DNA from: Ruminococcus sp.
GTDB taxonomy: Bacteria > Bacillota > Clostridia > Oscillospirales > Acutalibacteraceae
Direction of reading: 5' to 3'
NCBI GenBank assembly: GCA_017403985.1
Contig: JAFRDE010000012.1
Coordinates: 1-64,000 of the forward strand
Length of the DNA: 64,000 nt
A program made the translations under genes and the position numbers. Positions 16,452 through 37,222 of this stretch are shown piece after piece (within the stretch, counting starts at the first letter, position 1; the number at the start of each line of letters is the position of its first letter). The notes below the pieces were generated by a model. It worked only from the letters and a program-made list of their open reading frames with translations. It was not told where the DNA came from and ran no database searches.

Positions 16452-17261
16452 TTATATTGTTAAGTCATATACTTTTTTGACGTTTTCGCTGAGGATGAGC
16501 TTCATTTCTTCATCCGTCAGTCCGAGGTTAAAGAACATCTCCACCTCGTCCTTCGGGTGCCACATCGGGTAATCGGTGCCGAACAGCACCCTGTCCGCGC
16601 CGTAGCGGCGGATGATCTCGGCGGTCTTGTCGAGCGGTACCCATGCCATCGTGGACGAGCAGTCGACATATAGGTTCGGGATACCCGCCAGCTCTTTACT
16701 GGCTTCTTCCCACAGCGACCAGCCGCCCAGATGCGCGCCGATAATGGTCAGGTCGGTATACGTTTCCAAGATCGGGATCAGGCGGTTGGTGTTGGAGAAA
16801 TCATAGCGCTTATCGCCCGTGTGCATCAGGATCGGCAGCCCGAACTCCTCGCACAGCTCATAGATCTTCAGACAGCGGTAGTCGTCGATCTTGAACTGCT
16901 GGATGTCGGGATGGAGCTTGACTCCTTTGAGTCCGAGGTCTACCAGATGCTGAACATCTGCGCGCTGATCCTCGCTGTCGGGATGGAGCGTACCCAGTCC
17001 CGTCAATCTGCCGTCAGCCTGCGCGACGGTATCGGCAATAAAGTTGTTGATGGACTGCACCTGCTTCGGGGTCGTCGCGACGCTCTGTACCAGCGAATGA
17101 TCGATCCCGACCTGCGCGTTGATCTCTAACAGACTGCGCGCGGTGCCGTCGCACTTGGCGACGGTGTCATAGAAGTGATCGGTACCCGCCACCGCCTTGG
17201 ACGCGATCTTTTCGGGGTAGATATGGCAGTGCGTGTCAATTATCTGAAATCCGTTTCTCAT
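16452..17261 (-). CDS. Amidohydrolase family (amidohydrolase 2 / ACMSD-like) protein
   Basis: The 269-residue protein has the metal-dependent TIM-barrel hydrolase pattern: DTHCHIY near the start (HxH), GVKLHPD, LMHTGDK, IIGAHLGGW and FGTDYPMW supply the remaining His and Asp ligands. This subfamily includes decarboxylases (ACMSD, gamma-resorcylate) as well as hydrolases. Its ATG overlaps the stop of the upstream TIM-barrel/acyl-CoA-synthetase fusion in the form TAATG, so translation is coupled and the two proteins probably act on the same substrate. The reaction is not known. Confidence 0.87.
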   Translation of the reverse strand: MRNGFQIIDTHCHIYPEKIASKAVAGTDHFYDTVAKCDGTARSLLEINAQVGIDHSLVQSVATTPKQVQSINNFIADTVAQADGRLTGLGTLHPDSEDQRADVQHLVDLGLKGVKLHPDIQQFKIDDYRCLKIYELCEEFGLPILMHTGDKRYDFSNTNRLIPILETYTDLTIIGAHLGGWSLWEEASKELAGIPNLYVDCSSTMAWVPLDKTAEIIRRYGADRVLFGTDYPMWHPKDEVEMFFNLGLTDEEMKLILSENVKKVYDLTI

Positions 17262-19786
17262 TACGCCGTCACCACACTGTTCGCTTTCTGCAGACCGAGC
17301 TTCTCGACCGCGTCCTCGCGCATCTTGTACTTGAGGATCTTGCCGGCGGCGTTCATCGGGAAGCTGTCGACAAAGTCGATATAGCGCGGCACCTTATGGC
17401 GCGCCATGTTCGCGGCGATATAGTCCTTCATCTCCTGCTCGGTCATATTCTCGCCCTCCTTGAGGATGATGCACGCCATGATCTCTTCACCGTAGTTTTC
17501 ATCGGGTACGCCGATGACCTGAACGTCGGATACCTTGGGATTGGTATAGATGAATTCCTCGATCTCCTTGGGGTAAATATTTTCACCGCCGCGGATGATC
17601 ATGTCTTTGAGTCGTCCGGTGATCTTATAATAACCGTCCTCGGTCTTGCAGGCGAGGTCGCCGGTATGGAGCCAGCCGTCCTTGTCGATGGCTTCGGCAG
17701 TCTCCTTGGGCATCTTGTAATAGCCCTTCATGATATTGTAGCCGCGCGCGAGGAATTCGCCGTTGACGTTGGGAGGGCACTCCTCCCCCGTCTCGGGATC
17801 GACAATCTTACACTCGATCTCAGGCAGTTCTTTTCCGACGGTGTTGACGCGCACTTCGATCGAATCCTCGGTTGAGCTCATGGTACAGCCGGGAGAAGCC
17901 TCGGTCTGACCGTAAACGATGGTGATCTCGGTCATGTGCATCTTGTCGACGACCTCGCGCATTTTATCGATCGGGCAGGGAGAACCCGCCATGATACCGG
18001 TACGCATGTAGGAGAAGTCGGTCTTAGGGAAGTCGGGATGCTCCAGCAGGGAGATAAACATCGTGGGAACGCCGTGGAAGGCGGTGATATGCTCGTTGTT
18101 GATACACGCAAGCGCGGGCTTCGGGCTGAAATACGGCAGCGGCAGAACGGTCGCGCCGTGTGTCATGGAGGCGGTCATCGCCAGCACCATGCCGAAGCAG
18201 TGGAACATCGGTACCTGGATCATCATGCGGTCGGCAGTGGACAGATCCATGCGGTCGCCGATATTCTTGCCGTTGTTGACGATATTGTAGTGGGTCAGCA
18301 TCACGCCCTTGGGGAAGCCGGTGGTGCCGGAGGTGTACTGCATATTGCAGACGTCGTCCTTGTCGACCGCCGCCGCCATGCGATAAACTTCGCTCTTCGG
18401 GGTCTTGGTGGCGTATTCCAAGGCTTTTTCCCATGTCAGACAGCCCTTCTGCTCAAAGCCGACGGTGATGACGTTGCGCAGGAACGGCAGACGCTTCGCG
18501 TGGAGCTGTTCGCCGTCCTTGACGTTTGCGAGCTCAGGACACAGGCGGGCGACGATCTCGCCGTAGCTGGTATCCTTCGCGCCCTCTGTGATGATCAGGG
18601 TATGGGTATCGCTCTGTTTAAGCAAATATTCAGCCTCATGGATCTTGTAGGCAGTGTTGACGGTGACCAGCACAGCGCCGAGCTTGACGGTCGCCCAGAA
18701 GGAGATATACCACTGGGGGACGTTGGAAGCCCAGACTGCGACGTGAGAGCCGGCTTTCACGCCTAAGGAGATCAGAACGCGGGCGAATTCATCCACGTCG
18801 TCGCGGAACTCGCTGTAGGTGCGGGTATAATCGAGCGAGGTGTATTTGAACGCTAACTGATCGGGGAATTCCTCCACCATGCGGTCGAGGACGTCAGAGA
18901 AGGTCGCGTCGATCAGCGTTTCCTTCTTCCATACGAACTTTCCGGTATGGCGGTTGTTCCAGTACAGCGCGGATTCATTCTTGGAGGTATCAGCGAACTG
19001 CTTCATGTAGCTGATAAACTGGGCGAAGATGATATCCATATCGTCGAGCTCAGGACACCACTTGGGATCCCACACCAGCGAGATAAAGCCGTCATAGTTG
19101 ACTGAGCGCAGCGCCTTCATGGTCTCGGTAATCGGAAGATTTCCCTCGCCGACCAAACGGTATTCGATACCGTCGATGGTCTCGACAGCATCGTTAAGAT
19201 GGACATGACGCACATACGCGCCGAGATTCGAGATGATCTTGGCGGGACTCTCGCCGACGGTGAAGTAGGCGGCGGACATATTCCACAGCGCCGCGACATA
19301 ATCGGACGCAAAATACTCCAGCGTATCGCGCAGCAACGCTGTGTCAGCGTACATTCCGCGCGTTTCGATCAACAGCGAGATCTTCTCCTTTTCCGCCTCG
19401 GGCAGGACGGACTCGATCAGACGCTTGGTGTTTTTGACAGCTAATTTAACGTCAAAATGCGTTTCCGCTCTCAGGCGGATATTGGGGATATGAAGGTTAG
19501 AGGCGATCTGTAAACAGCGGCTGATCTCGGCGATCGCCGCGTCGAACTGATCCTCGTCGGCAATATCGTTGATGACGTCGATGCAGGGGATCTTCAACCC
19601 GCGGTCGTATAACATCCGCATCGTCGCCGCGGCGGAGTAATCCTGAAAGACCCCGCTCTTTTCGGAGAATGCCGCGTTGTTGATATTATGAGGCTCAATG
19701 CCCTCGAATTTAAAGTATTCCGCAGCGTCGCAAAATTCTTCAAAAGAAATATCATGCCAGCCTTTGGTGGAAAATGAAAATTTCAT
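17261..19786 (-). CDS. Fusion: sugar-phosphate-isomerase-like TIM barrel + AMP-forming acyl-CoA synthetase
   Basis: The 841-residue protein joins two complete domains. Residues about 1-265 are a xylose-isomerase-like / AP endonuclease 2 TIM barrel (FSTKGWHDISFEEFCDAA at the start, then RLRAETHFD, LLIETRG and VHLNDAV blocks). Residues about 275-830 are an ANL-superfamily ligase with MQYTSGTTGFPKG (P-loop), YGQTEASPG, the HTGDLA aspartate motif and the C-terminal AAGKILKYKM lysine motif, so the ligase looks active. It activates some carboxylic acid to its CoA thioester. It is coupled by TAATG to the amidohydrolase and lies 205 bases after the LeuA-like gene behind a Leu-type T-box. I do not know another use of this fusion. 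Confidence 0.88.
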   Translation of the reverse strand: MKFSFSTKGWHDISFEEFCDAAEYFKFEGIEPHNINNAAFSEKSGVFQDYSAAATMRMLYDRGLKIPCIDVINDIADEDQFDAAIAEISRCLQIASNLHIPNIRLRAETHFDVKLAVKNTKRLIESVLPEAEKEKISLLIETRGMYADTALLRDTLEYFASDYVAALWNMSAAYFTVGESPAKIISNLGAYVRHVHLNDAVETIDGIEYRLVGEGNLPITETMKALRSVNYDGFISLVWDPKWCPELDDMDIIFAQFISYMKQFADTSKNESALYWNNRHTGKFVWKKETLIDATFSDVLDRMVEEFPDQLAFKYTSLDYTRTYSEFRDDVDEFARVLISLGVKAGSHVAVWASNVPQWYISFWATVKLGAVLVTVNTAYKIHEAEYLLKQSDTHTLIITEGAKDTSYGEIVARLCPELANVKDGEQLHAKRLPFLRNVITVGFEQKGCLTWEKALEYATKTPKSEVYRMAAAVDKDDVCNMQYTSGTTGFPKGVMLTHYNIVNNGKNIGDRMDLSTADRMMIQVPMFHCFGMVLAMTASMTHGATVLPLPYFSPKPALACINNEHITAFHGVPTMFISLLEHPDFPKTDFSYMRTGIMAGSPCPIDKMREVVDKMHMTEITIVYGQTEASPGCTMSSTEDSIEVRVNTVGKELPEIECKIVDPETGEECPPNVNGEFLARGYNIMKGYYKMPKETAEAIDKDGWLHTGDLACKTEDGYYKITGRLKDMIIRGGENIYPKEIEEFIYTNPKVSDVQVIGVPDENYGEEIMACIILKEGENMTEQEMKDYIAANMARHKVPRYIDFVDSFPMNAAGKILKYKMREDAVEKLGLQKANSVVTA

Positions 19787-19874
19787 CGGTAATCACATAC
19801 CTTTCAAATGTGTATAAACAAAAACAGTAACAGTGTCAATAATTACGTTTAATGTGAGAGATAGGTGCAGTCCC

Positions 19875-19975
19875 TTTTTGTGGGATTGCCACGTCGCTTT
19901 GCTCCTCGCAATGACAGCGAATCTTTGTGGGATTCCCACGTCGGGACTCTGTCCCTCCTCGGAATGACACAAGGA
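19875..19975. repeat. Two REP-like palindromic units
   Basis: Unit 1 contains GGGATTGCCACGTCGC...CCTCGCAATGACA and unit 2 contains GGGATTCCCACGTCGGG...CTCGGAATGACA. The ends of each unit are complementary, so each folds into a long imperfect hairpin. At least six related units lie elsewhere in the window. They sit between the LeuA-like gene and the fusion gene and could attenuate or process the mRNA. Confidence 0.75.
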
Positions 19976-19991
19976 AAAAGGCACGCGTACC

Positions 19992-21362
19992 TTAATCCTC
20001 TTCGTAAACGATCTTGTTGACCGCGCTGATGTACGCGCGGATGGACGCGCCGATAATATCCGTACTGAGACCGGTGCCGGAGTAAATGCGTCCGCCCACT
20101 CTCAGGCGTACCAGCGCGGAACCCATTGCTTCTTTCTCCTGTGTGACGGTCTGGATGGAGAAATCGTCAAGCTCAAAGCGTCTGCCGATGATCTGCTCGA
20201 TCGCGTGGAAAGCGGCGTCGATCGGACCGTCGCCGATCGCGATGCCCTGTACGGTCCTGCCTTCGCGGTTGAGTGAGATCTGCGCGGAGGAGCTGATGCG
20301 GTTGCCGCTGTTAATCACATAAGTCTCGAGATTGTAGGTCGAGGGAACCTGCAGCGCGACGGACGCGATGATCGCGTCGAGCTCCTTGATGCCGACATTT
20401 TTCTTGCGGGCGATACGCAGGAACTCCTCATATACCTTTTTGATATCCTCGTCGGACAGGTCGTAGCCTAACTTTTCGATGCTTTCGCGTACTGTGTCGA
20501 TGGTATCGGTGGCAGCCAAACGGATGCCGTCGTCCACGATCTCACGCGCGACGACATTCTGCGCCTTACCGCTGATGATCCACTCGATCTGGTCGATGGT
20601 GCGGTGGAGCTCGGTGGTACGGATATCGGCAGAAATACCGTAATTCTCGCGGATATCTTTGATCAGCGCGCCGAATTCTCGCAGCGGAGTTGCTTCGCCG
20701 CCGATCGAAGTCTTGACGCAGGCAGCGCCGTTCTTGACAGCCAATATCGCCGCCGCGGTAGCGACGCCGTTTTTATTATTGCACATCACGCCGACCGGTA
20801 CGTCGATATCCTCGGTCACTCTGATGACAAATGCCGCGAAATCATCGGGCAGGAGAATCGCCGCGTCGTCGCACAGCGTTACCTTGGAGGCTCCCGCCGC
20901 GACAGCGCAGCGGATGGCTTCTTTGAGGAAGGCTTCTTCAGCGCGGGTCGCGTCGACTGCGGAAAACTCTACGTCGTCACAGACGGTTTTTGCCTTCGCG
21001 ACCATCCGGCTGACGTAATCGCACATCTTATTCTGCTTCTTATGCAGCGTATATTCCATGATAGAAGCCGTCATCGGCAGCTCGACGCGGATACGCGGAC
21101 GCGCAGCCGTCGACAGCGCCTCAGCCGCGCGGTCGATCGCCTCGGGCGAAGAGGTCGCCGCTACGGAAAGGACCGAACCTTTCACAAAGGACGCCGCAGT
21201 ACGCACCAGCAGGCTGTCCGCCTTTGTCACGCCGATCTCGGGAAGCTCGATCGCGTCAACGCCGAGTCGCTCTAATTTACGCGCGATCTCCAGCTTCTGC
21301 TTGAAAGATAAAGTCGATTTCGCGTCGGATAACGTCGTTTCGGCAATTTTGATGTGATTCAT
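19992..21362 (-). CDS. LeuA/HMG-lyase-family protein with LeuA dimer-regulatory domain, metal site lost
   Basis: The 456-residue protein has the isopropylmalate/homocitrate synthase layout: an HMGL-like TIM barrel (residues about 1-270) and a C-terminal LeuA allosteric domain (about 330-455). Key catalytic positions differ. The usual TLRDGEQ box reads TLSDAKS, removing the catalytic Arg. The metal-binding HxHND box reads MCNNKNG, removing both His ligands. The GxGERAGN box is not recognisable. It is probably not a functional IPM synthase and may be a leucine-binding regulator or an altered lyase. A T-box leader (21523-21834) with apparent Leu specifier controls it. An AGGAGG site precedes ATG 21362. 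Confidence 0.82.
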   Translation of the reverse strand: MNHIKIAETTLSDAKSTLSFKQKLEIARKLERLGVDAIELPEIGVTKADSLLVRTAASFVKGSVLSVAATSSPEAIDRAAEALSTAARPRIRVELPMTASIMEYTLHKKQNKMCDYVSRMVAKAKTVCDDVEFSAVDATRAEEAFLKEAIRCAVAAGASKVTLCDDAAILLPDDFAAFVIRVTEDIDVPVGVMCNNKNGVATAAAILAVKNGAACVKTSIGGEATPLREFGALIKDIRENYGISADIRTTELHRTIDQIEWIISGKAQNVVAREIVDDGIRLAATDTIDTVRESIEKLGYDLSDEDIKKVYEEFLRIARKKNVGIKELDAIIASVALQVPSTYNLETYVINSGNRISSSAQISLNREGRTVQGIAIGDGPIDAAFHAIEQIIGRRFELDDFSIQTVTQEKEAMGSALVRLRVGGRIYSGTGLSTDIIGASIRAYISAVNKIVYEED

Positions 21363-21416
21363 AGTATGATTCCTCCTAAGTTGATAGAAGATATTAAGTA
21401 TTATTGCTAAGGAAAC

Positions 21417-21525
21417 AAGTGACCGGTGACAAGTTAATAGGGTCGCTTCGCTCCGATTTGATTTTTCGGGTGCGGGCAGCGCCCGCCATCAACCATTCAC
21501 CATTCACCGTTCACCATTCACCAAA
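21417..21525. repeat. Composite repeat with heptamer arms between T-box terminator and LeuA-like gene
   Basis: The left arm has AAGTGACCGGTGACAAG and the right arm has three CATTCACC/GTTCACC units. The core contains GGGTGCGGGCAGCGCCCGCC. It lies inside the transcribed leader, after the T-box terminator and before the ribosome site. Confidence 0.65.
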
Positions 21526-21834
21526 AAATAAATCCCCGAGGTTCTAAAACCTCAGGGACGAATTTACTTCGCGGTACCACCCTGCTTGCCGTATAATACG
21601 GCCGCTCACCGGGCTCTGACAAGCCCTCTGCCATGATAACGGGACAATCCGGAAACACCTACTGGCAACTGCCATACGCGTAAAAAACGCGCACGCGCGT
21701 TCGGCGTTTCTGCTCCGAAATGAGACTCGCTATTACTTCCTAACCGTCTCACACCAACCGGCGGCTCTCTGAAAAGGGATGCTGTAAAAGCGATAATTTC
21801 TTCAACGCATTTAGCGGTTATTTTGCTGTTTAGT
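21523..21834 (-). promoter_or_regulatory. T-box riboswitch, apparent leucine specifier (CTC)
   Basis: On the minus strand the leader holds Stem I (AGAGAGCCGCC...GGTG), the distal CGGAGC element, the T-box AGGGTGGTACCGCG (21571-21584) and a terminator hairpin (about 21531-21556) ending in a T-rich tail. I place the specifier as CTC, 6 nt before GAGC at the position where it occurs in compact Ile/Gly T-boxes. CTC also lies at the end of a possible TGAGAC/GTCTCA stem, so the reading needs folding. T-boxes let uncharged tRNA stop termination, so low leucine charging would switch on the LeuA-like gene and perhaps the fusion gene. Confidence 0.85.
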
Positions 21835-21863
21835 AATATAGCACAAGAGAAAGCAATTGTCAA
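21835..21863 (-). promoter_or_regulatory. Sigma-A promoter of the Leu T-box unit
   Basis: Minus-strand TTGACA (21858-21863) and TATATT (21835-21840) are 17 bases apart, directly ahead of Stem I. Confidence 0.85.
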
Positions 21864-21957
21864 GCGCTTTAGTGTGTGAAAAGTTCCTTTTGTTTCAACT
21901 GACAAGGGAAGGATTATGCGTATGGATAATTATGGTGTTTTTGACAATGCCGTACTC

Positions 21958-22000
21958 CGATTTTTGGGATTGCCGCGCTCTAACGCGCTTGCAACGACAT
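21958..22000. repeat. REP-like palindromic unit
   Basis: A diverged copy (TTGGGATTGCCGCGCTCTA...GCTTGCAACGACA) of the repeat also seen at 19875, 23231 and 31904. It lies downstream of ilvE. Confidence 0.6.
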
Positions 22001-22053
22001 CATCCGATAGAAAAACGGCAGGGTCTCCCCTGCCGTCGTCATATCTTATTCAA

Positions 22054-23118
22054 TTAAACCTCAACGGTCCAGCCGTACTTGTCCTCGATCTCGCCCCACT
22101 GGATACCGGTAACGGTATCGTAGAGGTGCTGGGACAGCTCGCCGATCTCGTTGTTGTTGACGGTGTACTTGTGCTCCTTGTAACACAGCTCGCCGATCGG
22201 AGAGATGACCGCCGCGGTACCGCAGCCCCATGCCTCTTCGAGAGTGCCGTCGGTCATCGCCTGAGCAAGCTCCTCAACGGGCAACAGGCGCTCGTTGATG
22301 TTGTAGCCCTCGTCCTTCAAAAGCTCGATGCAGGACTTTCTGGTGATACCGGGCAGGATGGAACCGGTCAGCTTGGGGGTGACGATCTCATCGCCGATCT
22401 TGAACATAACGTTCATCGCGCCGACTTCCTCGATGTACTTGCGCTCAACGCCGTCGAGCCACAGAACCTGAGAATAGCCCATCTGCTCGGCGCGCTCGCC
22501 TGCACGGTTGGAAGCGGCGTAGTTGCCGCCGCACTTCGCGTAGCCGGTACCGCCGCGCACCGCGCGGACGTCCTGATCCTCGATCATGATCTTGACCGGG
22601 TTCAGACCTTCTTTATAGTAGGAACCGACCGGAGAAGCGATGATCAGGAACTCTGCATGATGTACCGCGTGAACGCCGAGGCTCTCGTCGTCGCCGAACA
22701 TGAACGGACGCAGATACAGGGAGGTACCCTTATCGGCGGGAGTCCAATCCTGCTCCAAACGAACGAACTCGAGCAGCGCCTGCATCGCGTCGTCCTCAGG
22801 CATCTCAGGCAGGCAAAGACGCTCGGCGGAATTGTTCATACGGCGGATGTTTTCGATCGGTCTGAAAAGCTGTACCTTACCGTCGGCACGGCGATATGCC
22901 TTCAGGCCCTCAAAAATCTCAGAGCCGTAATGCAGTACGGTGGAAGCAGGATGGATGGAAAGGCGCTCGAAAGGAACGATGCGGGCGTCATGCCAGCCCT
23001 GATCCTTATCCCATGTCCAGCGGAACATGTGATCGGTAAAAATCTTGCCGAAGCCGAGGGTGGAGGTATCGGTGGGCTTTGCCTTCGGATTCGGGTTTAA
23101 GGTAACTTTGATATCCAT
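22054..23118 (-). CDS. ilvE: Branched-chain amino acid aminotransferase
   Basis: The 354-residue protein has the fold-type IV PLP aminotransferase pattern of the longer IlvE type: HYGSEIFEGLKAYR near residue 80, KCGGNYAAS with the PLP lysine in this block, VMFKIGD and the LPGITRKS phosphate-binding segment. It interconverts leucine, isoleucine and valine with their 2-oxoacids using glutamate/2-oxoglutarate. It is downstream of the VOR subunits on the same strand, with about 200 bases of REP repeats between. Together they can carry a branched 2-oxoacid to or from the amino acid. An AAGGAG site precedes ATG 23118. Confidence 0.95.
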   Translation of the reverse strand: MDIKVTLNPNPKAKPTDTSTLGFGKIFTDHMFRWTWDKDQGWHDARIVPFERLSIHPASTVLHYGSEIFEGLKAYRRADGKVQLFRPIENIRRMNNSAERLCLPEMPEDDAMQALLEFVRLEQDWTPADKGTSLYLRPFMFGDDESLGVHAVHHAEFLIIASPVGSYYKEGLNPVKIMIEDQDVRAVRGGTGYAKCGGNYAASNRAGERAEQMGYSQVLWLDGVERKYIEEVGAMNVMFKIGDEIVTPKLTGSILPGITRKSCIELLKDEGYNINERLLPVEELAQAMTDGTLEEAWGCGTAAVISPIGELCYKEHKYTVNNNEIGELSQHLYDTVTGIQWGEIEDKYGWTVEV

Positions 23119-23146
23119 AATTATCTACTCCTTTACAGTATCAATT

Positions 23147-23316
23147 GTCATTCCGAGGAGGGCACAGCCCGACGTGGGAATCCCCCTGTGACTGAAACCG
23201 TTCACAATAACAGAAATATTGATTCTCTCTTTGTGGGATTGCCGCGCCCTAAAGGGCTCGCAATGACAGCGTGTAATTGTAGGATTGCCACGGGCTAAAG
23301 CCCTCGTAATGACATT
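23147..23316. repeat. Three REP-like palindromic units between VOR and ilvE
   Basis: Units at 23147-23190 (opposite orientation: GTCATTCCGAGGAGGGC...GTGGGAATCC), 23231-23275 (GGGATTGCCGCGCCCTA...GCTCGCAATGACA) and 23279-23316 (GGATTGCCACGGGCTA...CCCTCGTAATGACA). Each folds on itself. No gene is seen in this gap. Confidence 0.75.
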
Positions 23317-23325
23317 TTTATCTAA

Positions 23326-23861
23326 TTATTCAAACTCCGCGCCCATCTGGATCGCCTTGAAGTTGACGTCCTTCATGTTGGCGCGCTTGGCGGAGATGAC
23401 CTTATCTAAAGCGGCACGGATGCCCTCGTCGGTATAGTCGCCGGTCTCTTTGAGGAGCTTGCCGACGATGATCATGTTGGCGAGATTGCCGAGCTTTTCA
23501 TCGGAAGCCATCTTGGTCGCCGGAATATAGAATACAGTCACGTCGTCGCGCTCGACCTTGCGCTCGATCAGCGTAGAATCCGCGAAGATCATGCCGCCGG
23601 GCTTGACCTTACTCTCGAATCTGTCTAAGGACGGCAGATTCATGGCGACGAGGATATCGGGATTAGAAACGATCGGGGAACCGACGGGTGTGTCGGATAC
23701 GATAACGGAGCAGGAAGCGGTACCGCCGCGCATCTCGGGACCGTAGGAGGGCAGCCAGCTTACCTGCTTATCCTCGATCAGACCTTTGTAGGCGATGAAC
23801 TTGCCGGCGAAAAGGATACCCTGACCGCCGAAGCCGGAGAACAACATATTTTTAGCACTCA

Positions 23862-23862
<1 letters not shown>
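23326..23862 (-). CDS. 2-oxoacid:ferredoxin oxidoreductase, gamma subunit
   Basis: The 178-residue protein starts MSAKNMLFSGFGGQGILFAGK, the glycine-rich start of the POR/KOR/VOR gamma domain, and keeps the SWLPSYGPEMRGGTASC block for contacts with the partner subunits. In the complex it takes part in CoA-dependent oxidative decarboxylation (or reductive carboxylation) of a 2-oxoacid. Its ATG overlaps the end of the beta subunit gene, so it is translationally coupled. It is the last gene of the ferredoxin-alpha-beta-gamma operon. Confidence 0.93.
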
Positions 23863-24619
<757 letters not shown>

Positions 24620-24620
<1 letters not shown>

Positions 24621-25684
24621 TACGCAATACCTCCGTTTACTTCTTTGATCGCGTTCAGCACCTGTTCCGGGTCGGGGATCATACCGCCGGCGCGGTTGCA
24701 CAGGGAAACGGGACACTTGGATTCAATCGCGAGCTGAACGTCCTCGATCATCTGACCCATGTTCAGCTCGACGGAAATGAACGCCTTCGCGTGCTCGGCA
24801 GCCTTCTTGAAGGGCGCCTTCGGGAACGGCCAGAGGGTGATCGGACGGATCAGACCGACCTTGATGCCGAGCTTTCTCGCCTCGTCTACAGCGTTCTTGG
24901 AAACGCGCGCGGCAATACCGAAAGCGGCGATGACGATATCGGCGTCCTCAACCTTGTACTCTTCATACATGGTCTCGTTCTCTTCGATGACCTTATAGCG
25001 GTCATAACGCTTGAAATTGAGCTCCTCTAATTCCTCGGGAACCAGAGAGAGAGAGTTGACGATGTTATGCTCGCGCTCGAGCTTGGTGCCGGTGGTCGCC
25101 CACGGCTTTTCGGGAGCGGGCTTGACCTCGAGGTCTTCGATGGATACGGGCTCCATCATCTGACCCATGGTACCGTCGGCAAGGACCATAGCGGTCACGC
25201 GGTATTGATCGGCGAGTTCAAAACCCTTGACGGTCAGCTCAGCCATTTCCTGTACGGAAGCGGGAGCGAGAACGATCATGTGATAGTCGCCGTGGCCGCC
25301 GCCGCGGGTAGACTGGAAGTAGTCGGACTGGGAAGGCTGGATGCCGCCGAGACCCGGGCCGCCGCGCTGTACGTTAACAACCAGAGCGGGAAGATCGGAG
25401 CCGGCTAAGTAGGAGATACCCTCGCCCTTCAGCGATACGCCGGGAGAGGAAGAAGAGGTCATGACTCTTTTACCTGCCGAGGCGACGCCGTAGACCATGT
25501 TGATCGCGGCGATCTCGGACTCCGCCTGCAGGAAGGTACCGCCGATCTTCGGCATGACCTTCGCCATGTAAGCGGCAATCTCGGTCTGAGGGGTGATCGG
25601 ATAACCGAAGTAATGCAGACAGCCCGCCTTGATCGCGGCTGCGGCGATGGCTTCGTTACCCTTCATCAAAATCTTATCTGCCAT
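24620..25684 (-). CDS. vorB: 2-oxoacid:ferredoxin oxidoreductase, alpha subunit (VorB-like, 3-methyl-2-oxobutanoate)
   Basis: The 354-residue protein is the pyruvate/2-oxoacid:ferredoxin oxidoreductase alpha subunit, with GNEAIAAAAIKAGC, GYPITPQTEI, QAESEIAAINM and TSSSSPGVSL blocks. The overall sequence is of the type usually named VorB. The four-subunit form with a separate small ferredoxin and the neighbouring ilvE both point to branched-chain 2-oxoacids, but substrate choice among 2-oxoacids cannot be fixed from sequence. It begins 9 bases after the ferredoxin gene and couples to the beta subunit by TAATG. Confidence 0.92.
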
Positions 25685-25693
25685 GTTTTTTCA

Positions 25694-25906
25694 TCACCTT
25701 TCTACCTTAATGATACAGTCGGGGCACATCATATAGCAGGATGCGCAGCCGATACATTCACTCATATCGGTGCACTCTACGGGATGGTGACCCTTCTTGT
25801 TGATCTTGTCTGTGGCGATACGCAGGATGCCCTTGGGGCAGGCGTCCACACACAGCGCGCAACCTTTACAGTTGTCGGTCTTGAATGTCAGTTTTGCCAT
25901 ATACAT
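25694..25906 (-). CDS. 2 x [4Fe-4S] ferredoxin-like delta subunit of the 2-oxoacid oxidoreductase
   Basis: The 70-residue protein has two clusters of Cys spaced as CxxCxxCxxxCP: CKGCALCVDACPKG and CIGCASCYMMCPD. It passes electrons between the TPP site and external ferredoxin. It is the first subunit gene in the operon, 16 bases after the P-loop ATPase gene. Confidence 0.95.
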   Translation of the reverse strand: MYMAKLTFKTDNCKGCALCVDACPKGILRIATDKINKKGHHPVECTDMSECIGCASCYMMCPDCIIKVER

Positions 25907-25922
25907 TTTCCCTTCTTCTTAT

Positions 25923-26585
25923 TTATATCGGTTTCGCTTGAAGATGCAAGCGGAATAATGGGTTGATTTGATCTTTCAATTCATCATAGAGGCGATTCTC
26001 GACGGTGGTAAGCACCAACGGTAATCCTGACAGCTCGCAGACTGCTTTCGCATAGTCGGCGGAGCCGAGAACATCCTTTGCGGAGGTCTCCCCCGCCAAG
26101 TTTGAATTGTTAATGATGCCGGTGAACGGGATACCGCACGCCGCTTCGATCTCGCGCATGACCTCGATAGTCGACGGCGCGTCGGGCGTCAGGGGGCGGA
26201 ACTTGTTCACCACCATCAGCATTTCATAGTCATCTTCGGCAAGGATCGCGTCGCGCAGTCTGCCGAGAGCATAGGCTCCCCTGTCGTCGCCGCCGATATC
26301 CATGATCACGGAGAGACTTTTGTCGTCGGTGATGGAATACAGGTCGGCAGGCATGGACGGCAGATCGACGTTGGAGGACGCGAACTCGGAGCAGATCAGG
26401 CGGATACCGTGTGCTTTGAATTCATCCTCGCTGTCCTTGGAGCGGAAATAGGGATTGACGATATCGAGGTCGGCGATGGCGACGTTATCGCGCTGAGAAG
26501 CGAGATCAAGCGCCATGTTGACAGCGATGTTGGTCTTTCCCGAGCCGTAGTGACCGCAGAGGATGGTTAATCTCTTATATAACAT
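25923..26585 (-). CDS. ParA/MinD/CobQ-type P-loop ATP-binding protein
   Basis: The 220-residue protein has a deviant Walker A, GHYGSGKTN, at residues about 9-17, then VAIADLDIVNPYF (Walker A' aspartate region) and VIMDIGGDD (Walker B). This is the SIMIBI class used for metal-cluster assembly or partitioning. An in-frame extension to 26669 runs into repeat sequence. The ATG at 26585 gives MLYKRLTILCGHYGSGKT with a natural start, so I chose it. Its place just ahead of the ferredoxin/VOR genes suggests a maturation role for an Fe-S enzyme. This is inference. Confidence 0.8.
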   Translation of the reverse strand: MLYKRLTILCGHYGSGKTNIAVNMALDLASQRDNVAIADLDIVNPYFRSKDSEDEFKAHGIRLICSEFASSNVDLPSMPADLYSITDDKSLSVIMDIGGDDRGAYALGRLRDAILAEDDYEMLMVVNKFRPLTPDAPSTIEVMREIEAACGIPFTGIINNSNLAGETSAKDVLGSADYAKAVCELSGLPLVLTTVENRLYDELKDQINPLFRLHLQAKPI

Positions 26586-26595
26586 AGTAAACTTA

Positions 26596-26757
26596 TCCTT
26601 CGATATAATACACTGAAAAATGAATACTGAAAACTTAAAACTGAAAAATGTTGGGTGGGACACCCACACCCGTTTTAAATTCTACCAATCCAAAACGCGA
26701 GAGCGTTTCCCAATATTATTCATTATTCAGTCTTCAGTCTTCAATTTTCAGTATCAT
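26596..26757. repeat. Composite repeat with ACTGAAAA/TTTTCAGT arms and shared GC core
   Basis: The left arm (ATGAATACTGAAAACTTAAA) and right arm (TTCAGTCTTCAGTCTTCAAT) are inverted relative to one another. The core GGGTGGGACACCCACACCCG ... AACGCGAGAGCGTTTCCC is nearly the same as at 3634-3829, while the arms differ. The right arm ends at the stop codon of the next gene. Confidence 0.75.
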
Positions 26758-29042
26758 AGCAGGTTCCTCTGTATCTTACCGCTCGTTGTCTTCGGCAGAG
26801 AATCGCGGAAGACGACGATACGCGGGTATTTATACGGAGCGGTGTGGGTCTTGACGTAATCCTGGATCTCTTTCTTCAGCGCTTCGGTGCCCTCGGTACC
26901 CTTCACCAGCACGATAGAAGCCTTGACGACCTGACCTCTTACGGGGTCGGGAGCGGGAGAAACGCCGCACTCGAGCACATAAGGCAGCTCCATGATGACA
27001 CTCTCGATCTCAAACGGTCCGATACGGTAGCCGGAGGACTTGATAACGTCGTCCGCACGTCCGACATACCAGAAGAAGCCGTCTTCATCGCGCCACGCGA
27101 GGTCGCCGGTGTGGTAATAGCCGTTGCGCCAGTTCTTGCGGGTCGCGTCGACGTCGTTATAGTAGTACATCGCCAGACCGCAGGGCATCCCGTCCGCAAT
27201 ATTGATCACGATCTCGCCGGGTTCGCCGTCGGGAACGTCATTGCCGTCCTTATCGATCAGATGGATGTCATAGATCGGCGAGGGCTTGCCCATGGAGCCG
27301 ATCTTATGCGGCGCGCCGATCATATTGCAGATAATAACGGCGGTCTCGGTCTGACCGAAGCCCTCCATGATCTGCAGACCGGTGAGCTTCTCGAACTGGT
27401 TGTATACCTCGGGATTCAGCGCCTCGCCCGCGGTGGTCATGCGCTTGACGGAGGAGAAATCGTACTTACTGATATCCTCCTTGATCATCATGCGCAGCAT
27501 CGTAGGCGGTGCGCAGAAGGTTGTGATCTGATACTTTGCGAACATCGGCAGGATGTCGTCGGCATGGAAGCGGTCGAAGTCGTAAACGAACATCGGCGCT
27601 TCACACAGCCACTGGCCGTAGAGCTTGCCCCACGCGGCTTTTGCCCAGCCGGTGTCGGAGATGGTAAAGTGCAGACCGTCGGGATCGACGTTGTGCCAGA
27701 AGTGGGCGGTCATGAAGTGACCCAGCGCCAGCTTATGGCTGTGGGCGGCGATCTTCGGATAACCGGAGGTGCCGGAGGTGAAATACATCAGCATGATATC
27801 GTCGCCGCAGGGGGTGCTTTCCTTACGCTCAAAGTGGGATGAGAACAGCTTATATTCTTCGTCGAAGTTGCGCCAACCCTCACGCACGCCGTTGACCATG
27901 ATGCGCTTGAGCTGCGGATAATTCTCCATCGCCTTTTCGACCTCTTCGGCACTGTAGCCGTCGCCGGTACAGATGATAGCGGAAACGCCCGCCGCCTTAA
28001 AGCGGTATTCGAGGTCGTGCGCCTGCAGCTGATTGGTCGCGGGGATCGCGATCGCGCCCAGCTTGTGCAGACCGATGATCGCGAACCAGAACTGGTAATG
28101 ACGCTTCAATATCAGCATGACGCGGTCGCCTCTGCGGATACCAAGGCTCTTGAAATAGTTCGCGCACTGGCAGGACGCGTGACGGATATCGGTAAAGGTG
28201 AAGCGGTGCTCCGTCTTGTCGTTGCCGACATGGATCATCGCCAGCTTGTCGGGGTCTTTATAGGAAATGGCGTCGATGACGTCATAGCCGAAGTTGAATT
28301 TTTCCGTATTCTTGAAAGTGACCTTGGTCGGCGTGCCGTTCTCGTTGACCTCATAGTCGACGAACTTCTTCCAGACGCGCTCCTTGGTGTCGATTTTTTC
28401 CACCTTGGCGGTGGCGATCGCCTTGGTCTGGGTCAGCTCGGGGATCGGCTCGCCCTTGGGATTGAGGACAATCGCGTAGAAGATACAATCCTGTTCGCCG
28501 ACTGCCATTTCACCGTGAGGCGTATTGGAATCGAAATAAATCGTATCGCCGGGTCCTAAGATCTCTTTATGATCGCCGACCTGTACCATCAGCTGACCTT
28601 CGATGACGATATCGATCTCCTGACCGTCGTGCGTCGTCAGCTCCATCGGCTTATTCTGTGCATCCGGATTATACTTGCTCTTGACATACAGAGGCTCCGC
28701 GATGCGGTTCTGGAACGCATAGGCAAGATTATAGTAGGTCATGCCGTGCGCCTGAGATACCTTCTGACCGGTACCGCGTCGGGTCACGGTGTAGGATTTC
28801 AGATTCGGAGAAATACCCTCGATGATCTCGGTGACGTTGACGTTCAGCGCCTGAGCAACGCGATAAATGAAAGCGAAGTTCAAGTCCTGTTCGCCGGATT
28901 CACAGGCGATATACTCCTCTTCGGTCACGTCGGTGAACGCCGCCATTTCCGCGACGGTCTTGCCCTCTAATTCGCGCAGTTCGCGAATACGGGAAGCCAT
29001 TTCTTTGATTTTTGTGTCGATAGCAGTTGTGTTGTAATCCAT
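26754..29042 (-). CDS. HTH(XRE)-cupin-AMP-forming acyl-CoA synthetase fusion (copy A)
   Basis: The 762-residue protein has three parts. Residues about 10-65 form an XRE helix-turn-helix (IRELRELEGKTVAEMAAFTDV). Residues about 110-195 form a cupin_2 barrel (GQEIDIVIEGQLMVQVGDH, then GDTIYFDSNTPHGEMA). Residues about 230-760 form an ANL ligase with MYFTSGTSGYPKI, GFGQTETAVI, YHTGDLAWRDEDG, YRIGPFEIE and the C-terminal KTTSGKIQRN lysine. HTH+cupin is a classic repressor layout (PuuR/SutR type), here joined to an enzyme. The ligase is of the acetyl/medium-chain acyl-CoA type. It is preceded by its own T-box with apparent Val codon. Likely role: activation of a branched acid, with possible autoregulation. 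Confidence 0.9.
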   Translation of the reverse strand: MDYNTTAIDTKIKEMASRIRELRELEGKTVAEMAAFTDVTEEEYIACESGEQDLNFAFIYRVAQALNVNVTEIIEGISPNLKSYTVTRRGTGQKVSQAHGMTYYNLAYAFQNRIAEPLYVKSKYNPDAQNKPMELTTHDGQEIDIVIEGQLMVQVGDHKEILGPGDTIYFDSNTPHGEMAVGEQDCIFYAIVLNPKGEPIPELTQTKAIATAKVEKIDTKERVWKKFVDYEVNENGTPTKVTFKNTEKFNFGYDVIDAISYKDPDKLAMIHVGNDKTEHRFTFTDIRHASCQCANYFKSLGIRRGDRVMLILKRHYQFWFAIIGLHKLGAIAIPATNQLQAHDLEYRFKAAGVSAIICTGDGYSAEEVEKAMENYPQLKRIMVNGVREGWRNFDEEYKLFSSHFERKESTPCGDDIMLMYFTSGTSGYPKIAAHSHKLALGHFMTAHFWHNVDPDGLHFTISDTGWAKAAWGKLYGQWLCEAPMFVYDFDRFHADDILPMFAKYQITTFCAPPTMLRMMIKEDISKYDFSSVKRMTTAGEALNPEVYNQFEKLTGLQIMEGFGQTETAVIICNMIGAPHKIGSMGKPSPIYDIHLIDKDGNDVPDGEPGEIVINIADGMPCGLAMYYYNDVDATRKNWRNGYYHTGDLAWRDEDGFFWYVGRADDVIKSSGYRIGPFEIESVIMELPYVLECGVSPAPDPVRGQVVKASIVLVKGTEGTEALKKEIQDYVKTHTAPYKYPRIVVFRDSLPKTTSGKIQRNLL

Positions 29043-29072
29043 AACATACCTCTATTCCCGGGATGCTTGCAT

Positions 29073-29376
29073 TAAAAAACGCTCATCCCAAAGTAATAAC
29101 TTTGAGACGAGCGCATAACACCCGCGGTACCACTCAAATTGCAGGCTGAAACTCAGCTCTGCCGCTCTCAGAATCTTATACCGGTCCTATCGAAGCGCGG
29201 TATATAACCCCCAGACATTCACGCAGTCATCACGGAGGAGGTCTAATCACACATTACATGCTTTCTTCTCCCCGGCTCTGAAGCTACAAACACGGAAACC
29301 GTCACGGGAGCTTTCACCAACCGCTCCTTCTCTGAGTGACAAGAGAACCGCGCCCTCTTCGTCATAGCCTTTAACT
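29073..29376 (-). promoter_or_regulatory. T-box riboswitch, apparent valine specifier (GTA)
   Basis: The minus strand shows Stem I (CAGAGAAGGAGCGGTTGGTG, with GGAGC/GCTCC pairing), the T-box GAGTGGTACCGCGGGTG (around 29120-29136) and a strong terminator (CGCTC...GAGCG stem, T6) at 29077-29115. Taking the triplet 6 nt before GAGC gives GTA (Val). The neighbouring TTT or GTT would be other readings, so this specifier is the least certain of the three. Control is by uncharged tRNA binding, which prevents termination ahead of the HTH-cupin-ligase gene. Confidence 0.87.
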
Positions 29377-29382
29377 CGTCTT

Positions 29383-29411
29383 ATATTATCACATGATTCG
29401 TTATTTGTCAA
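29383..29411 (-). promoter_or_regulatory. Sigma-A promoter of T-box (Val) unit
   Basis: Minus-strand TTGACA (29406-29411) and TAATAT (29383-29388) with a 17-base spacer, just upstream of the leader. Confidence 0.88.
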
Positions 29412-29424
29412 CCCGTTTTTAGTG

Positions 29425-29525
29425 GCAAGTGACAAGTGACCGGTGACAAGTTATTTCAATATAATACAGGTGTGGGCGAAGCCCGCCAACAACTTGTCAC
29501 TAACCACTGACCACTGGTCACTGGT
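29425..29525. repeat. Composite repeat with GTGACAAGT/ACTTGTCAC arms
   Basis: The left arm GGCAAGTGACAAGTGACCGG and right arm CAACTTGTCACTAACCACTG are inverted. The core has GGTGTGGGCGAAGCCCGCC. The right arm ends at the stop codon of the ligase gene at 29526. Confidence 0.7.
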
Positions 29526-31790
29526 TTACAGTTTATTTCTCTGGATCTTGCCGCTGATGGTCTTGGGCAGGCTGTCGCGGAAGACGACGATACGCGGATA
29601 CTTGTAAGGAGCGGTATGCTGCTTGACGTAATCCTGGATCTCTTTCTTCAGCTCTTCGGAAGGCTCCTTGCCCTTGACGAGGACGATACTCGCCTTGACG
29701 ACCTGACCGCGCACCTCATCGGGAGCCGCGGATACGCCGCACTCAAGCACATACGGCAGTTCCATGATGACGGATTCGATCTCGAACGGTCCGATACGGT
29801 AGCCGGAGGATTTGATAACGTCGTCGGTACGTCCGACATACCAGAAGTAGCCGTCCTCATCACGCCACGCGGTATCGCCTGTATGGTACATACCGTCATG
29901 CCACGCTTCATGCGTCGCTTCCTCGTTGCGGTAATAGCCTTTAAACAAGCCGCAGGGAACACGCTTGTCGGTACGAATAATGATCTCGCCGGGTTCGCCG
30001 TCGGGAACGGGATTGCCGTCCGGATCGACAATATCGATATCATAGCCAGGGATGGGCTTGCCCATCGAGCCGAGCTTGGGCGTCGTGCCGAAGAGGTTGC
30101 CGATAGTGAGGGTGGTCTCGGTCTGACCGAAGCCCTCCATGATCCTGAGACCCGTCGCCTTGCGGAACTGACGCCAGACCTCGGGATTCAGCGCCTCACC
30201 GGCAGTCGTCATATGGACAATGCTCGACAGATCGTACTTGCTCAGGTCCTCCTTGATCATCATGCGCAGCATGGTAGGCGGTGCGCAGAAGGTGGTGATA
30301 TGGTATTTTTTAAACATCGGAAGGATGTCGTCGGCATGGAAGCGGTCAAAGTCATAGGTAAAGACCGCGCCCTCAGACAGCCACTGGCCGTAGAGCTTGC
30401 CCCACAGCGCCTTACCCCAGCCGGTGTCGGAGATGGTGAAGTGCAGACCGTCGGGATCGACGCCGTGCCAGTATTTGGCGGTCACATAATGACCGAGCGC
30501 ATACTTGTAGCTGTGGTTGGCAATCTTGGGATAACCGGTCGTACCGGAGGTAAAGAACATGACCATCGTATCGTTGCCGCAGGGAGTATCGACGGTACGA
30601 TAATAATGAGTGGAATACATCTCATATTCTGCGTCGAAGTCACGCCAGCCGTCTCTCTGACCGCCCACCAAAACTTTAGTCGTCAGTGTCGGACAGGTCT
30701 TCTGCGCCTCGTCAACAGAGTCGGCAACAGCGCCGTCGGCAGTCGCGACAATCGCGGAAACGCCTGCCGACTGGAAGCGATATTCAAAATCATGCGCTAA
30801 GAGCTGATTGGTCGCGGGGATCGCGATCGCGCCCAGCTTATGCAGCGCAAGCATAGAGAACCAGAACTGGTAATGGCGCTTCAGCACGAGCATAACACGG
30901 TCGCCTTTTTTGATACCGAGCGATTTGAAATAGTTCGCAGTCTGATTGGAACGGCGCTTCATATCGTTGAAGGTAAAGCGACGCTCGACCTTGTTCTTGT
31001 CGATATGGAGCATGGCGAGCTTTTCGGGCGTATTGTTCGCGATGGCATCGACACAGTCGAAAGCAAAGTTGAACTTATCCTCATTCTTGAAGCTGATCGC
31101 TTTCAGACAGCCGTCCTCATCCTCAAGGGTACGGACAAACTGTGAGGCGATCTCGGATTTTTTCTTGACATGCGCCTTCATGACGTCGTCGTCGTGCTCT
31201 TCTACCTCTTTCTCGCCGGGGAGAATGATCGCGATGAACTTGACGTCCTCGCCGCCGATGGCGATCATGCCGTGAGGGGTGGAGGAATTGTAATAGATGC
31301 TGTCGCCCGCTTGCAGCTCCTCAAAATTGTTGCCGATCTGGATTTTCATCTTGCCGGAGATGACATAATCGAATTCCTGACCGGCATGCTTGGTCAGATG
31401 GATCGGCTTGTTCTGGAGCGATTCATTATAGTCGTATTGGCAGAAGTAGGGCTCGGCAATTTTGTTCTTGAACATCGGTGCGACGTTCACGATAGAGATG
31501 CCTTCTTCCTCGGCAGTCTGTCTGCCGCCGCCGCGTCGGGTAACGGTGTAGCTCTTGAGTCTTGCCGACTCGCCCTCTAAGATATCGGTGATACCCAGAC
31601 CGAATGCCAAAGCGCACTTATGGATAAAGGTAAAGGGGAAATCCTCAGACCCGTTCTCATAAGCCTTGTACTCGGCGACGGTCACCTCGGTTTTTTCCGC
31701 CATTTCCTCAACAGAAAAGCCGGAAATCTCACGCATCTCGCGGATACGTTTTGCTACCTCGACTAATTTTTCATTATCAACTACTGACAT
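29526..31790 (-). CDS. HTH(XRE)-cupin-AMP-forming acyl-CoA synthetase fusion (copy B)
   Basis: This is a 754-residue paralogue of the gene at 26754, with the same order: XRE HTH (about 10-65, ISGFSVEEMAEKTEVTVAEY), cupin (about 110-190, GQEFDYVISGKMKIQIGNN, GDSIYYNSSTPHGM) and ANL ligase (about 230-750, FFTSGTTGYPKI, GFGQTETTLT, YHTGDTAWRDEDG, KTISGKIQRN). Start ATG 31790 (MSVVDNEK) has GGGAGGAAC upstream. The in-frame extension to 31829 starts inside the leader and lacks a ribosome site. Its own T-box reads as Ile. Two paralogues with differing T-box codons suggest different branched-acid substrates. Confidence 0.9.
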   Translation of the reverse strand: MSVVDNEKLVEVAKRIREMREISGFSVEEMAEKTEVTVAEYKAYENGSEDFPFTFIHKCALAFGLGITDILEGESARLKSYTVTRRGGGRQTAEEEGISIVNVAPMFKNKIAEPYFCQYDYNESLQNKPIHLTKHAGQEFDYVISGKMKIQIGNNFEELQAGDSIYYNSSTPHGMIAIGGEDVKFIAIILPGEKEVEEHDDDVMKAHVKKKSEIASQFVRTLEDEDGCLKAISFKNEDKFNFAFDCVDAIANNTPEKLAMLHIDKNKVERRFTFNDMKRRSNQTANYFKSLGIKKGDRVMLVLKRHYQFWFSMLALHKLGAIAIPATNQLLAHDFEYRFQSAGVSAIVATADGAVADSVDEAQKTCPTLTTKVLVGGQRDGWRDFDAEYEMYSTHYYRTVDTPCGNDTMVMFFTSGTTGYPKIANHSYKYALGHYVTAKYWHGVDPDGLHFTISDTGWGKALWGKLYGQWLSEGAVFTYDFDRFHADDILPMFKKYHITTFCAPPTMLRMMIKEDLSKYDLSSIVHMTTAGEALNPEVWRQFRKATGLRIMEGFGQTETTLTIGNLFGTTPKLGSMGKPIPGYDIDIVDPDGNPVPDGEPGEIIIRTDKRVPCGLFKGYYRNEEATHEAWHDGMYHTGDTAWRDEDGYFWYVGRTDDVIKSSGYRIGPFEIESVIMELPYVLECGVSAAPDEVRGQVVKASIVLVKGKEPSEELKKEIQDYVKQHTAPYKYPRIVVFRDSLPKTISGKIQRNKL

Positions 31791-31903
31791 AATGTGTTCC
31801 TCCCATATAGATAGATTAGGGTTCAACAATCAATAAATCGAAGATTGTGTTGCAGTCGGCACGGCTTGGAAAAACAAGTCGCTGTGCGTAATGCTTATTC
31901 CGT

Positions 31904-31946
31904 TGAGATTGCCACGGCCCCTGTGGGGCTTCGCAATGACAAGGAA
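31904..31946. repeat. REP-like palindromic unit downstream of the Ile T-box terminator
   Basis: TGAGATTGCCACGGCCCC...GGGGCTTCGCAATGACA. Ends pair with each other. A near copy is at 32050-32092 inside the T-box leader. Confidence 0.78.
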
Positions 31947-31948
31947 TA

Positions 31949-32290
31949 AAAAAAACACCCGTCTCAACATTGAGACGAGTGTGAAAATCACATCCGCGGT
32001 ACCACTCAACTTGCAGTAATGCTACTGCCACTCTCGAGGTCTGTATATCGGTTGAGATTGCCACAGCTCCAATGGAGCTTCGCAATGACAATTTATATAT
32101 CTAACCTCTATGCCTTTACGCAGCAATCACGGGGAGTATCTACTCAGCATACACAAGTATCGCTTTTCGGGCTCCCGGCTCGGAAGGGATGGGTACTCAG
32201 GCTCATTTTATCGGCTTACACCTGCCGCCGACTCTCTGAAAAAACAACGCCCTGACCGTCTTCGTCACAGCCTTTATCAATTGTCTATGT
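31949..32290 (-). promoter_or_regulatory. T-box riboswitch, apparent isoleucine specifier (ATC)
   Basis: On the minus strand: Stem I AGAGAGTCGGCGGCAGGTG, then CCCATCCCTTCCGAGC, where ATC sits 6 nt before GAGC as in compact Ile T-boxes; the T-box GAGTGGTACCGCGGATG (around 31993-32009); and a terminator (CACTCGTCTCA...TGAGACGGGTG, T8) at about 31952-31982. The leader is longer than the Val one because a REP unit (32050-32092) lies between Stem I and the antiterminator. Charging of tRNA-Ile should control the ligase gene at 29526. Confidence 0.88.
32050..32092. repeat. REP-like unit inserted within the Ile T-box leader
   Basis: TGAGATTGCCACAGCTCC...GGAGCTTCGCAATGACA matches the unit at 31904 but lies between Stem I and the T-box sequence. 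It should fold as its own hairpin and so may extend the leader without breaking the switch. Confidence 0.78.
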
Positions 32291-37168: not shown

Positions 37169-37222
37169 TGTATCAGTTATTTAGTAAAGGGAGGAGCAAG
37201 CTCCTCCCTCACTGCTTTTTTG

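Follow-up and report, generated by a model that had tools for sequence, protein, structure and literature searches.

How does a bacterium in which the usual route to the branched-chain amino acids (BCAAs) cannot be found obtain isoleucine, valine and leucine? The question is raised by Ruminococcus sp. GCA_017403985.1 (completeness rating 99.56%), in which a 64,000-nucleotide stretch of contig JAFRDE010000012.1, hereafter the window, carries on its minus strand a block of genes for three AMP-forming acyl-CoA ligases, a 2-ketoisovalerate oxidoreductase (VOR), the branched-chain aminotransferase IlvE and a protein resembling 2-isopropylmalate synthase (LeuA), which we call pLeuA, together with three T-box leaders. 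The use of branched volatile acids by rumen bacteria has been known since the 1960s. We consider it very probable, from the sequence evidence set out below, that isoleucine, valine and leucine are made from external 2-methylbutyrate, isobutyrate and isovalerate, respectively, in a genome that lacks the ilv route and LeuA, with each acid activated by a ligase standing under the matching T-box.

Use of a complete ilv/leu pathway instead, one of the alternatives named in an initial annotation of this DNA, was looked for, and no IlvB, IlvC, IlvD or true LeuA was found. The first three gave no match in the genome in searches that recovered each family in 14 of 14 control genomes, and a complete ilv route is rejected on that ground. 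Used as a query, pLeuA found only itself and no other LeuA in the genome; the second LeuA type (NF002991) had no match there at 1e-40; and the genome's second HMGL-like protein proved to be oxaloacetate decarboxylase subunit alpha, scoring above the cut-off of that family. LeuC was checked indirectly, through a single aconitase-family gene, an open frame of 650 amino acids.

The block itself is as the initial annotation described it, with VOR, IlvE, three AMP-type ligases and a LeuA-like gene together on the minus strand, every gene being recognized by Pfam or NCBIfam models (Table 1). In the order of transcription, the Ile T-box precedes ligase 1; the Val T-box precedes ligase 2, an MRP-like ATPase, VorD, VorB, VorA, VorC and IlvE; and the Leu T-box precedes pLeuA, a TIM-fused ligase and an amidohydrolase. 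The four VOR subunit genes are adjacent, and VorB scores above its family cut-off in NCBIfam, with the beta, gamma and delta subunits below theirs. Two features go beyond the earlier description: ligases 1 and 2 are fusions with a helix-turn-helix (HTH) and cupin region, and the LeuA-like protein has lost catalytic residues. The genes and the T-boxes are present in the DNA as listed.

Three T-boxes reading Leu, Val and Ile by position had been proposed, and the specifier rule gives the same three amino acids; the Ile T-box lies just beyond the range 16452..31946 to which the proposal referred. When the leaders were scanned with a covariance model (RF00230), as had been suggested, all three were detected, the Leu box above the gathering score and the Ile and Val boxes below it. 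Each has the GGUACC core and a strong terminator hairpin followed by a U-run. Applied to the genome's own pheS T-box, the specifier rule gives UUC, as expected. The assembly contains eight T-boxes at E 0.001, the other five standing upstream of genes that we take to be cysE/cysS, alaS, pheS, thrS and a trpB-like gene. The bulge reads UGGU in the boxes for Ile, Val, Leu, Phe and Ala, UGGA in those for Cys and Thr, and UGGC in that for Trp. In the genome's tRNA-Leu(GAG) and tRNA-Val(UAC) the A73 and the ACCA end that a UGGU bulge needs were read directly; for tRNA-Phe, -Ala, -Cys, -Thr and -Trp the discriminator bases were taken to be the usual ones. A short interspersed repeat of the TGTCATTGCGA...GTGGCAATC type occurs in the window at about 32040-32090, 23190-23310 and 19880-19970 (minus strand), in several intergenic gaps and also within the Ile T-box leader.

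Ligases 1 and 2, each with an N-terminal HTH-cupin region followed by an AMP-ligase, are 63% identical to each other. The best match of ligase 1 in the Protein Data Bank (PDB) is 3etc, the medium-chain acyl-CoA synthetase MacsMa of Methanosarcina acetivorans, to which the ligase domains of ligases 1 and 2 are 51% and 49% identical; the match to ligase 1 covers residues 211-752, the HTH-cupin part lying outside it. MacsMa is reported to prefer 2-methylbutyrate (PMC10455477), and no sign was found by homology of a restriction of the ligases to long-chain or aromatic acids, which would have spoken against branched-acid use. The best NCBIfam model of both proteins is MbcS (NF047394), at 444 and 423 bits, and MbcS is described as taking 2-methylbutyrate and isobutyrate and, poorly, isovalerate (PMC10026030); its poor use of isovalerate fits the presence of a distinct type of ligase under the Leu T-box.

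A single residue sets the two ligases apart. We aligned 80 ligase 1 and 53 ligase 2 sequences, the window's two included, with groups assigned by best BLAST match; position 459 is Gly in 80 of 80 of the former and Ala in 53 of 53 of the latter, MacsMa having Gly. After residue 210 this is the only column that separates the groups at an agreement of at least 85% in each. When compared with the independently read specifier, the residue was Gly in 67 of 67 AUC genes and Ala in 41 of 41 GUA/GUC genes (unread in one and four others, respectively). A conserved GW stands immediately before this column, whose counterpart in acetyl-CoA synthetase 9g79 is the Val of GWVT. In the Salmonella enzyme W309 is followed by V310, a residue of the acyl-pocket lining that controls specificity (PMC8511477), and the motif suggests that the Gly/Ala column occupies the V310 position. 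Judged from sequence, the roomier Gly and the tighter Ala fit 2-methylbutyrate and isobutyrate, respectively. The ligase fold has EGFGQTE where 9g79 has a WW motif, with Gly replacing the acetate-type Trp, and a Trp-to-Gly rule has been described for short branched-chain acyl-CoA synthetases (PMC10455477). The predicted substrates are 2-methylbutyrate for ligase 1 and isobutyrate for ligase 2.

To follow the leaders in relatives, named genome contigs were scanned with ligases 1 and 2, yielding at least 578 relatives, of which the best 80 loci were kept; these are mainly metagenome-assembled genomes (MAGs) with titles such as Clostridia, Ruminococcus and Oscillospiraceae, many of rumen or gut origin. 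The neighbourhood set comprised these 80 ligase loci and 30 pLeuA loci, the window's own included, from 147 genomes of the order; the two sources have some genomes in common (G014 and L028 appear to be one) and are not fully independent, and the window itself (L089) was excluded from counts over relatives. Among genes with at least 400 nucleotides upstream (6 of 80 ligase 1 and 1 of 57 pLeuA genes had less), the specifier was AUC in 66 of 74 ligase 1 leaders, GUA or GUC in 45 of 57 ligase 2 leaders and CUC or CUG in 42 of 56 pLeuA leaders; none was read in the remaining 8, 12 and 14, and no other specifier codon occurred among the leaders of these 74, 57 and 56 genes. The specifier codon is nearly fixed across relatives, whereas there is variation in the next base and in several of the preceding ones. 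Specifiers unrelated to BCAAs, had they existed, would have undercut the proposal; those found are conserved BCAA codons. The Leu module stands in some relatives before the Ile module or on the opposite strand, with a Leu specifier wherever one was read. The carriers include a cultured organism, Erysipelotrichaceae bacterium NK3D112 (L027), which has the modules and in which the Ile specifier alone was read.

A further sample of order genomes, partly overlapping with these, gave the same pairing of codon and residue, AUC with Gly in 29 of 29 genes and GUA with Ala in 14 of 14; no T-box was read in 11 Gly and 2 Ala genes, and one AUC gene ends before the pocket residue. Six genes stand outside this tally: five Gly-type genes whose leaders, read by eye, give AUC/ATC (L180, L184, L187, L192 and L196), and the Ala-type L212, in whose leader only the core was seen and the specifier is unread. 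For L180, L184, L187 and L192 the automated reading of GGC came from a mis-picked stem, and a second candidate at normal spacing reads ATC. In many genomes of the order the Gly-type (Ile) ligase stands alone, often with neither IlvC nor a Val ligase. Some HTH-cupin-ligase matches in the order, at 42-54% identity, are interrupted by 1-4 stop codons, a hint that HTH-cupin and ligase are adjacent but separate genes elsewhere and were fused later.

The Leu module departs from the other two in carrying pLeuA. A LeuA-like protein is present, as had been noted, and by sequence it is not an isopropylmalate synthase: it scores 244.9 bits against a cut-off of 598.7 for LeuA TIGR00973, and the metal site and active-site residues are lost. 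Both histidines of the HxH metal site are kept in none of 58 pLeuA sequences (the window protein among them) and one of the pair in 3; the G and E of the RDGEQ motif are likewise kept in none, and the D in 4, including the window protein. In comparison with four true LeuA proteins (L121-L124, of which L123 and L124 are closely similar), the family has also lost R75 and the stretch containing H295, H300 and H302. The LeuA_dimer regulatory domain, in contrast, scores 104.9 bits against a Pfam PF08502 cut-off of 24.9, and mean identity within pLeuA is 0.64 in this domain versus 0.43 in the catalytic domain; in true LeuA the order is the opposite (0.58 versus 0.68). An AlphaFold2 model of pLeuA (mean pLDDT 85.2, pTM 0.60) matches LeuA and related synthases, including the leucine-bound LeuA 3fig, with a better superposition for the catalytic domain by itself than for the entire protein. 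These sequence features make pLeuA a probable pseudoenzyme. A catalytic pLeuA, performing a different reaction on the HMGL-like fold without the usual metal site, seems unlikely to us: the fold is kept and the barrel residues E39, D137, R140 and D165 are still conserved, but the losses just listed strike the metal site and active-site stretch, and the regulatory domain is the best conserved part of the protein.

In the loci with pLeuA, the gene for the TIM-fused ligase comes next, and its product is predicted to be the activator of isovalerate. In 23 full-length sequences, positions 169 (D/N), 196 (H/R/L) and 240 (N/K/D) of the TIM domain vary; these presumably correspond to metal-binding sites in related enzymes. 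Conservation is 0.51 in the TIM domain versus 0.81 in the ligase part, and the two observations together make sugar-isomerase activity of the domain seem unlikely.

What would the HTH-cupin regions and pLeuA be for? BirA, at once an enzyme and a DNA-binding regulator, offers an analogy. Tentatively, we infer that each ligase may have an end-product sensor besides its T-box: like BirA, the HTH-cupin ligases could be enzyme and DNA-binding regulator in one, and pLeuA could be a subunit that binds leucine and holds back the isovalerate ligase, its allosteric domain being the sole reason for its retention once the pathway had gone. In such an arrangement pLeuA would act as the leucine-sensing partner of the isovalerate ligase.

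The distribution of pLeuA connects the block with the missing route. Among ten sampled genomes of the same family, only this one and one other (G043) lack IlvC, and these two alone have a full-length pLeuA; the other eight have both IlvC and true LeuA. The expected link to ruminococci, which were said to need such acids, accordingly calls for caution, since 8 of the 9 other family members have those genes, and we regard the trait as one of particular lineages. In the 147 order genomes, IlvC was present in 3 of 30 genomes with pLeuA versus 66 of 117 without (Fisher p 3e-6), and true LeuA of either type in 1 of 30 (G089) versus 101 of 117 (p 4e-18), in tables uncorrected for kinship; counting only the true LeuA that resembles pLeuA, the figures are 0 of 30 versus 50 of 117. 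In all, true LeuA occurs in 102 and pLeuA in 30 of the 147, a single genome having both; that the two so nearly exclude each other points to replacement more than to mere loss. Where a genome has two fused HTH ligases (one copy in G142 ends at a contig end), pLeuA is present in 15 of 16 cases, versus 15 of 131 for the rest. The three pLeuA genomes with IlvC are instructive. In G014 the Ile ligase and pLeuA occur but a second HTH ligase does not, and in G060 pLeuA occurs with no match to an HTH ligase at 1e-100; these two retain IlvC and IlvD and are missing true LeuA, as though de novo synthesis supplied exactly what the modules leave out. The third, G089, is taken up below. Among 398 sampled genomes of the phylum, pLeuA was found at E 1e-80 in this genome and one other.

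The observations support a model in which uncharged tRNA-Ile, tRNA-Val or tRNA-Leu would switch on the matching ligase. Ligase 1 would then activate 2-methylbutyrate, ligase 2 isobutyrate and the TIM-fused ligase isovalerate; VOR would convert the acyl-CoA, CO2 and reduced ferredoxin to the 2-oxoacid; and IlvE would transaminate the 2-oxoacids to isoleucine, valine and leucine. Synthesis of BCAAs from branched acids by activation, reductive carboxylation and transamination, the core of what was proposed for this locus, is well supported, while we infer the substrates and the direction of the reactions. The biosynthetic direction is favoured by two properties of the system, namely, that T-boxes activate genes when the tRNA is uncharged (PMC7583486) and that the ligases spend ATP.

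Other uses of the same enzymes must be weighed against this model. The nearest named family, MbcS, serves to prime fatty acid synthesis in Staphylococcus aureus (PMC10026030), and the ligases here might likewise supply mainly isobutyryl-, 2-methylbutyryl- and isovaleryl-CoA for branched-chain membrane fatty acids, with the link to amino acids secondary. We judge this very improbable, given Ile, Val and Leu specifiers that are conserved gene by gene, VOR and IlvE within the block, and the association with missing IlvC and LeuA. That at least one ligase activates acids of another kind, for instance aryl acids leading to aromatic amino acids, with a looser match to the T-boxes, would agree with the formation of phenylalanine from phenylacetate in rumen bacteria (cited in PMC7356843) and with a TIM-fused ligase whose specificity is unconstrained by homology; set against conserved specifiers, kinship with MacsMa and MbcS, and a pocket residue that tracks the specifier without exception wherever both were compared in the alignment, it is very improbable. 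Operation in the catabolic direction, from BCAAs through 2-oxoacids and acyl-CoAs to acids with a yield of reduced ferredoxin and ATP, is hardly credible: 2-oxoacid oxidoreductases and aminotransferases are reversible, but the T-boxes would have the wrong sign (PMC7583486), AMP-forming ligases spend ATP and the de novo route is missing.

Several observations weigh against synthesis from branched acids under matched T-boxes, or against parts of it. Neither HTH-cupin ligase reaches the MbcS cut-off of 850 bits, each having about half that score, so that they are related to MbcS and not assigned to it. The isovalerate assignment of the TIM-fused ligase derives solely from its Leu T-box. In one relative (L207, in G142) a Gly-type HTH-cupin ligase stands under a CUC (Leu) T-box, the one mismatch between specifier and ligase type. 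No T-box was found by cmscan at E 0.01 in carriers L035, L041, L051 and L053, and in L043 only a Val box was found. G089 has the modules alongside IlvC, IlvD and true LeuA, and 7 of the many order genomes with only a Gly-type ligase have IlvC. Finally, tRNA-Ile(GAU) is absent among the 42 tRNA matches in the genome; such genes often lie in rRNA operons that MAGs miss, which may account for it. A tRNA-Ile with anticodon UAU is encoded in the window at 51452-51526 on the minus strand, in a Glu-Asp-Glu-Ile cluster.

Table 1. Features of the branched-acid block in the window, in order of transcription
Feature	Position	Strand	Basis
Ile T-box, specifier AUC, terminator; 5' of ligase 1	31968..32277	-	Rfam RF00230 75.9 bits, E 2.5e-15 (gathering score 93); specifier rule; terminator fold
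Ligase 1: HTH + cupin + AMP-forming acyl-CoA ligase, predicted 2-methylbutyryl-CoA synthetase	29526..31790	-	Pfam; PDB 3etc (MacsMa) E 1.2e-187; Gly459
Val T-box, specifier GUA, terminator; 5' of ligase 2	29100..29374	-	RF00230 71.6 bits, E 3.1e-14 (below gathering score); specifier; fold
Ligase 2: HTH + cupin + AMP-forming acyl-CoA ligase, predicted isobutyryl-CoA synthetase	26754..29042	-	Pfam; 63% identity to ligase 1; pocket Ala
MRP/ParA-like P-loop ATPase	25923..26585	-	Pfam CbiA 27.2 bits, ParA under its cut-off (scored on a longer open reading frame, to 26669); neighbourhoods
VorD, 4Fe-4S ferredoxin-like subunit	25694..25906	-	Pfam Fer4
VorB, 2-oxoacid:ferredoxin oxidoreductase alpha subunit	24620..25684	-	NCBIfam NF005507 VorB 545.9 bits, cut-off 399
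VorA, thiamine pyrophosphate (TPP)-binding beta subunit	23862..24620	-	Pfam TPP_enzyme_C; below NCBIfam cut-offs
VorC, gamma subunit	23326..23862	-	Pfam POR; below NCBIfam cut-offs
IlvE, branched-chain aminotransferase type II	22054..23118	-	TIGR01123 398.7 bits, cut-off 250.05
Leu T-box, specifier CUC, terminator	21551..21814	-	RF00230 114.7 bits, above gathering score 93; specifier; fold
pLeuA: LeuA-like probable pseudoenzyme, degenerate catalytic domain + kept LeuA_dimer regulatory domain	19992..21362	-	Pfam; alignment; LeuA-like fold
TIM-barrel (AP_endonuc_2) + AMP-forming acyl-CoA ligase fusion, predicted isovaleryl-CoA synthetase	17261..19786	-	Pfam; follows pLeuA in relatives
Amidohydro_2 family protein, overlaps stop of TIM-fused ligase	16452..17261	-	Pfam; present in only part of relatives

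The MRP/ParA-like ATPase gene precedes VorD in most relative loci that extend that far, and its product perhaps delivers Fe-S clusters to VOR. Elsewhere in the window, an ordinary SAM-I riboswitch (37075-37170, minus strand) precedes the S-adenosylmethionine synthetase gene metK (35735-36913, minus strand).

Compared with known systems, the overall chemistry is that of rumen branched-acid carboxylation, by which isovalerate yields leucine, 2-methylbutyrate yields isoleucine and isobutyrate yields valine (PMC7356843). We met no gene set or regulation for that process in the open-licence literature; the genes, the three T-boxes and the assignment of ligases are proposed from this locus. Similarity to MacsMa extends to the Gly at the pocket column and ends with the ligase part of ligase 1. 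With MbcS of S. aureus the ligases would have alpha-branched short acids in common, whereas MbcS feeds fatty acid synthesis (PMC10026030). The T-boxes match RF00230 (the Ile and Val boxes below the gathering score) and share a specifier codon, the core and the terminator with those of BCAA genes, among which leuA T-boxes are known (PMC2494555), but what they govern is a group of acid-activating ligases and a probable LeuA pseudoenzyme in place of ilv/leu pathway genes. Similarly, pLeuA shares the fold, the LeuA_dimer domain and a leucine T-box with 2-isopropylmalate synthase but, as a family, has lost the catalytic metal site and the active-site stretch. In the open-licence literature we found no paper linking T-boxes with acyl-CoA, Ruminococcus or 2-ketoisovalerate oxidoreductase; the main texts of PMC2494555 and PMC7778990 mention neither CoA nor an oxidoreductase, and PMC11304471 concerns Bacteroides. 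Such T-boxes may stand unremarked in T-box databases. What looks new is the set of genes and the way it is controlled; the chemistry itself is old.

The locus supplies candidate genes for the use of branched acids in the rumen, with one ligase per acid and predictions that can be tested separately. It would represent a case in which T-boxes, one for each amino acid, have been put to use in a substitute pathway, and in which an RNA codon together with a single residue may allow the substrates of acyl-CoA ligases to be predicted. In pLeuA, it offers a probable example of an enzyme that has given up catalysis and kept a domain that probably binds leucine. These findings may be relevant to the feeding of branched acids to ruminants and to cross-feeding in gut communities.

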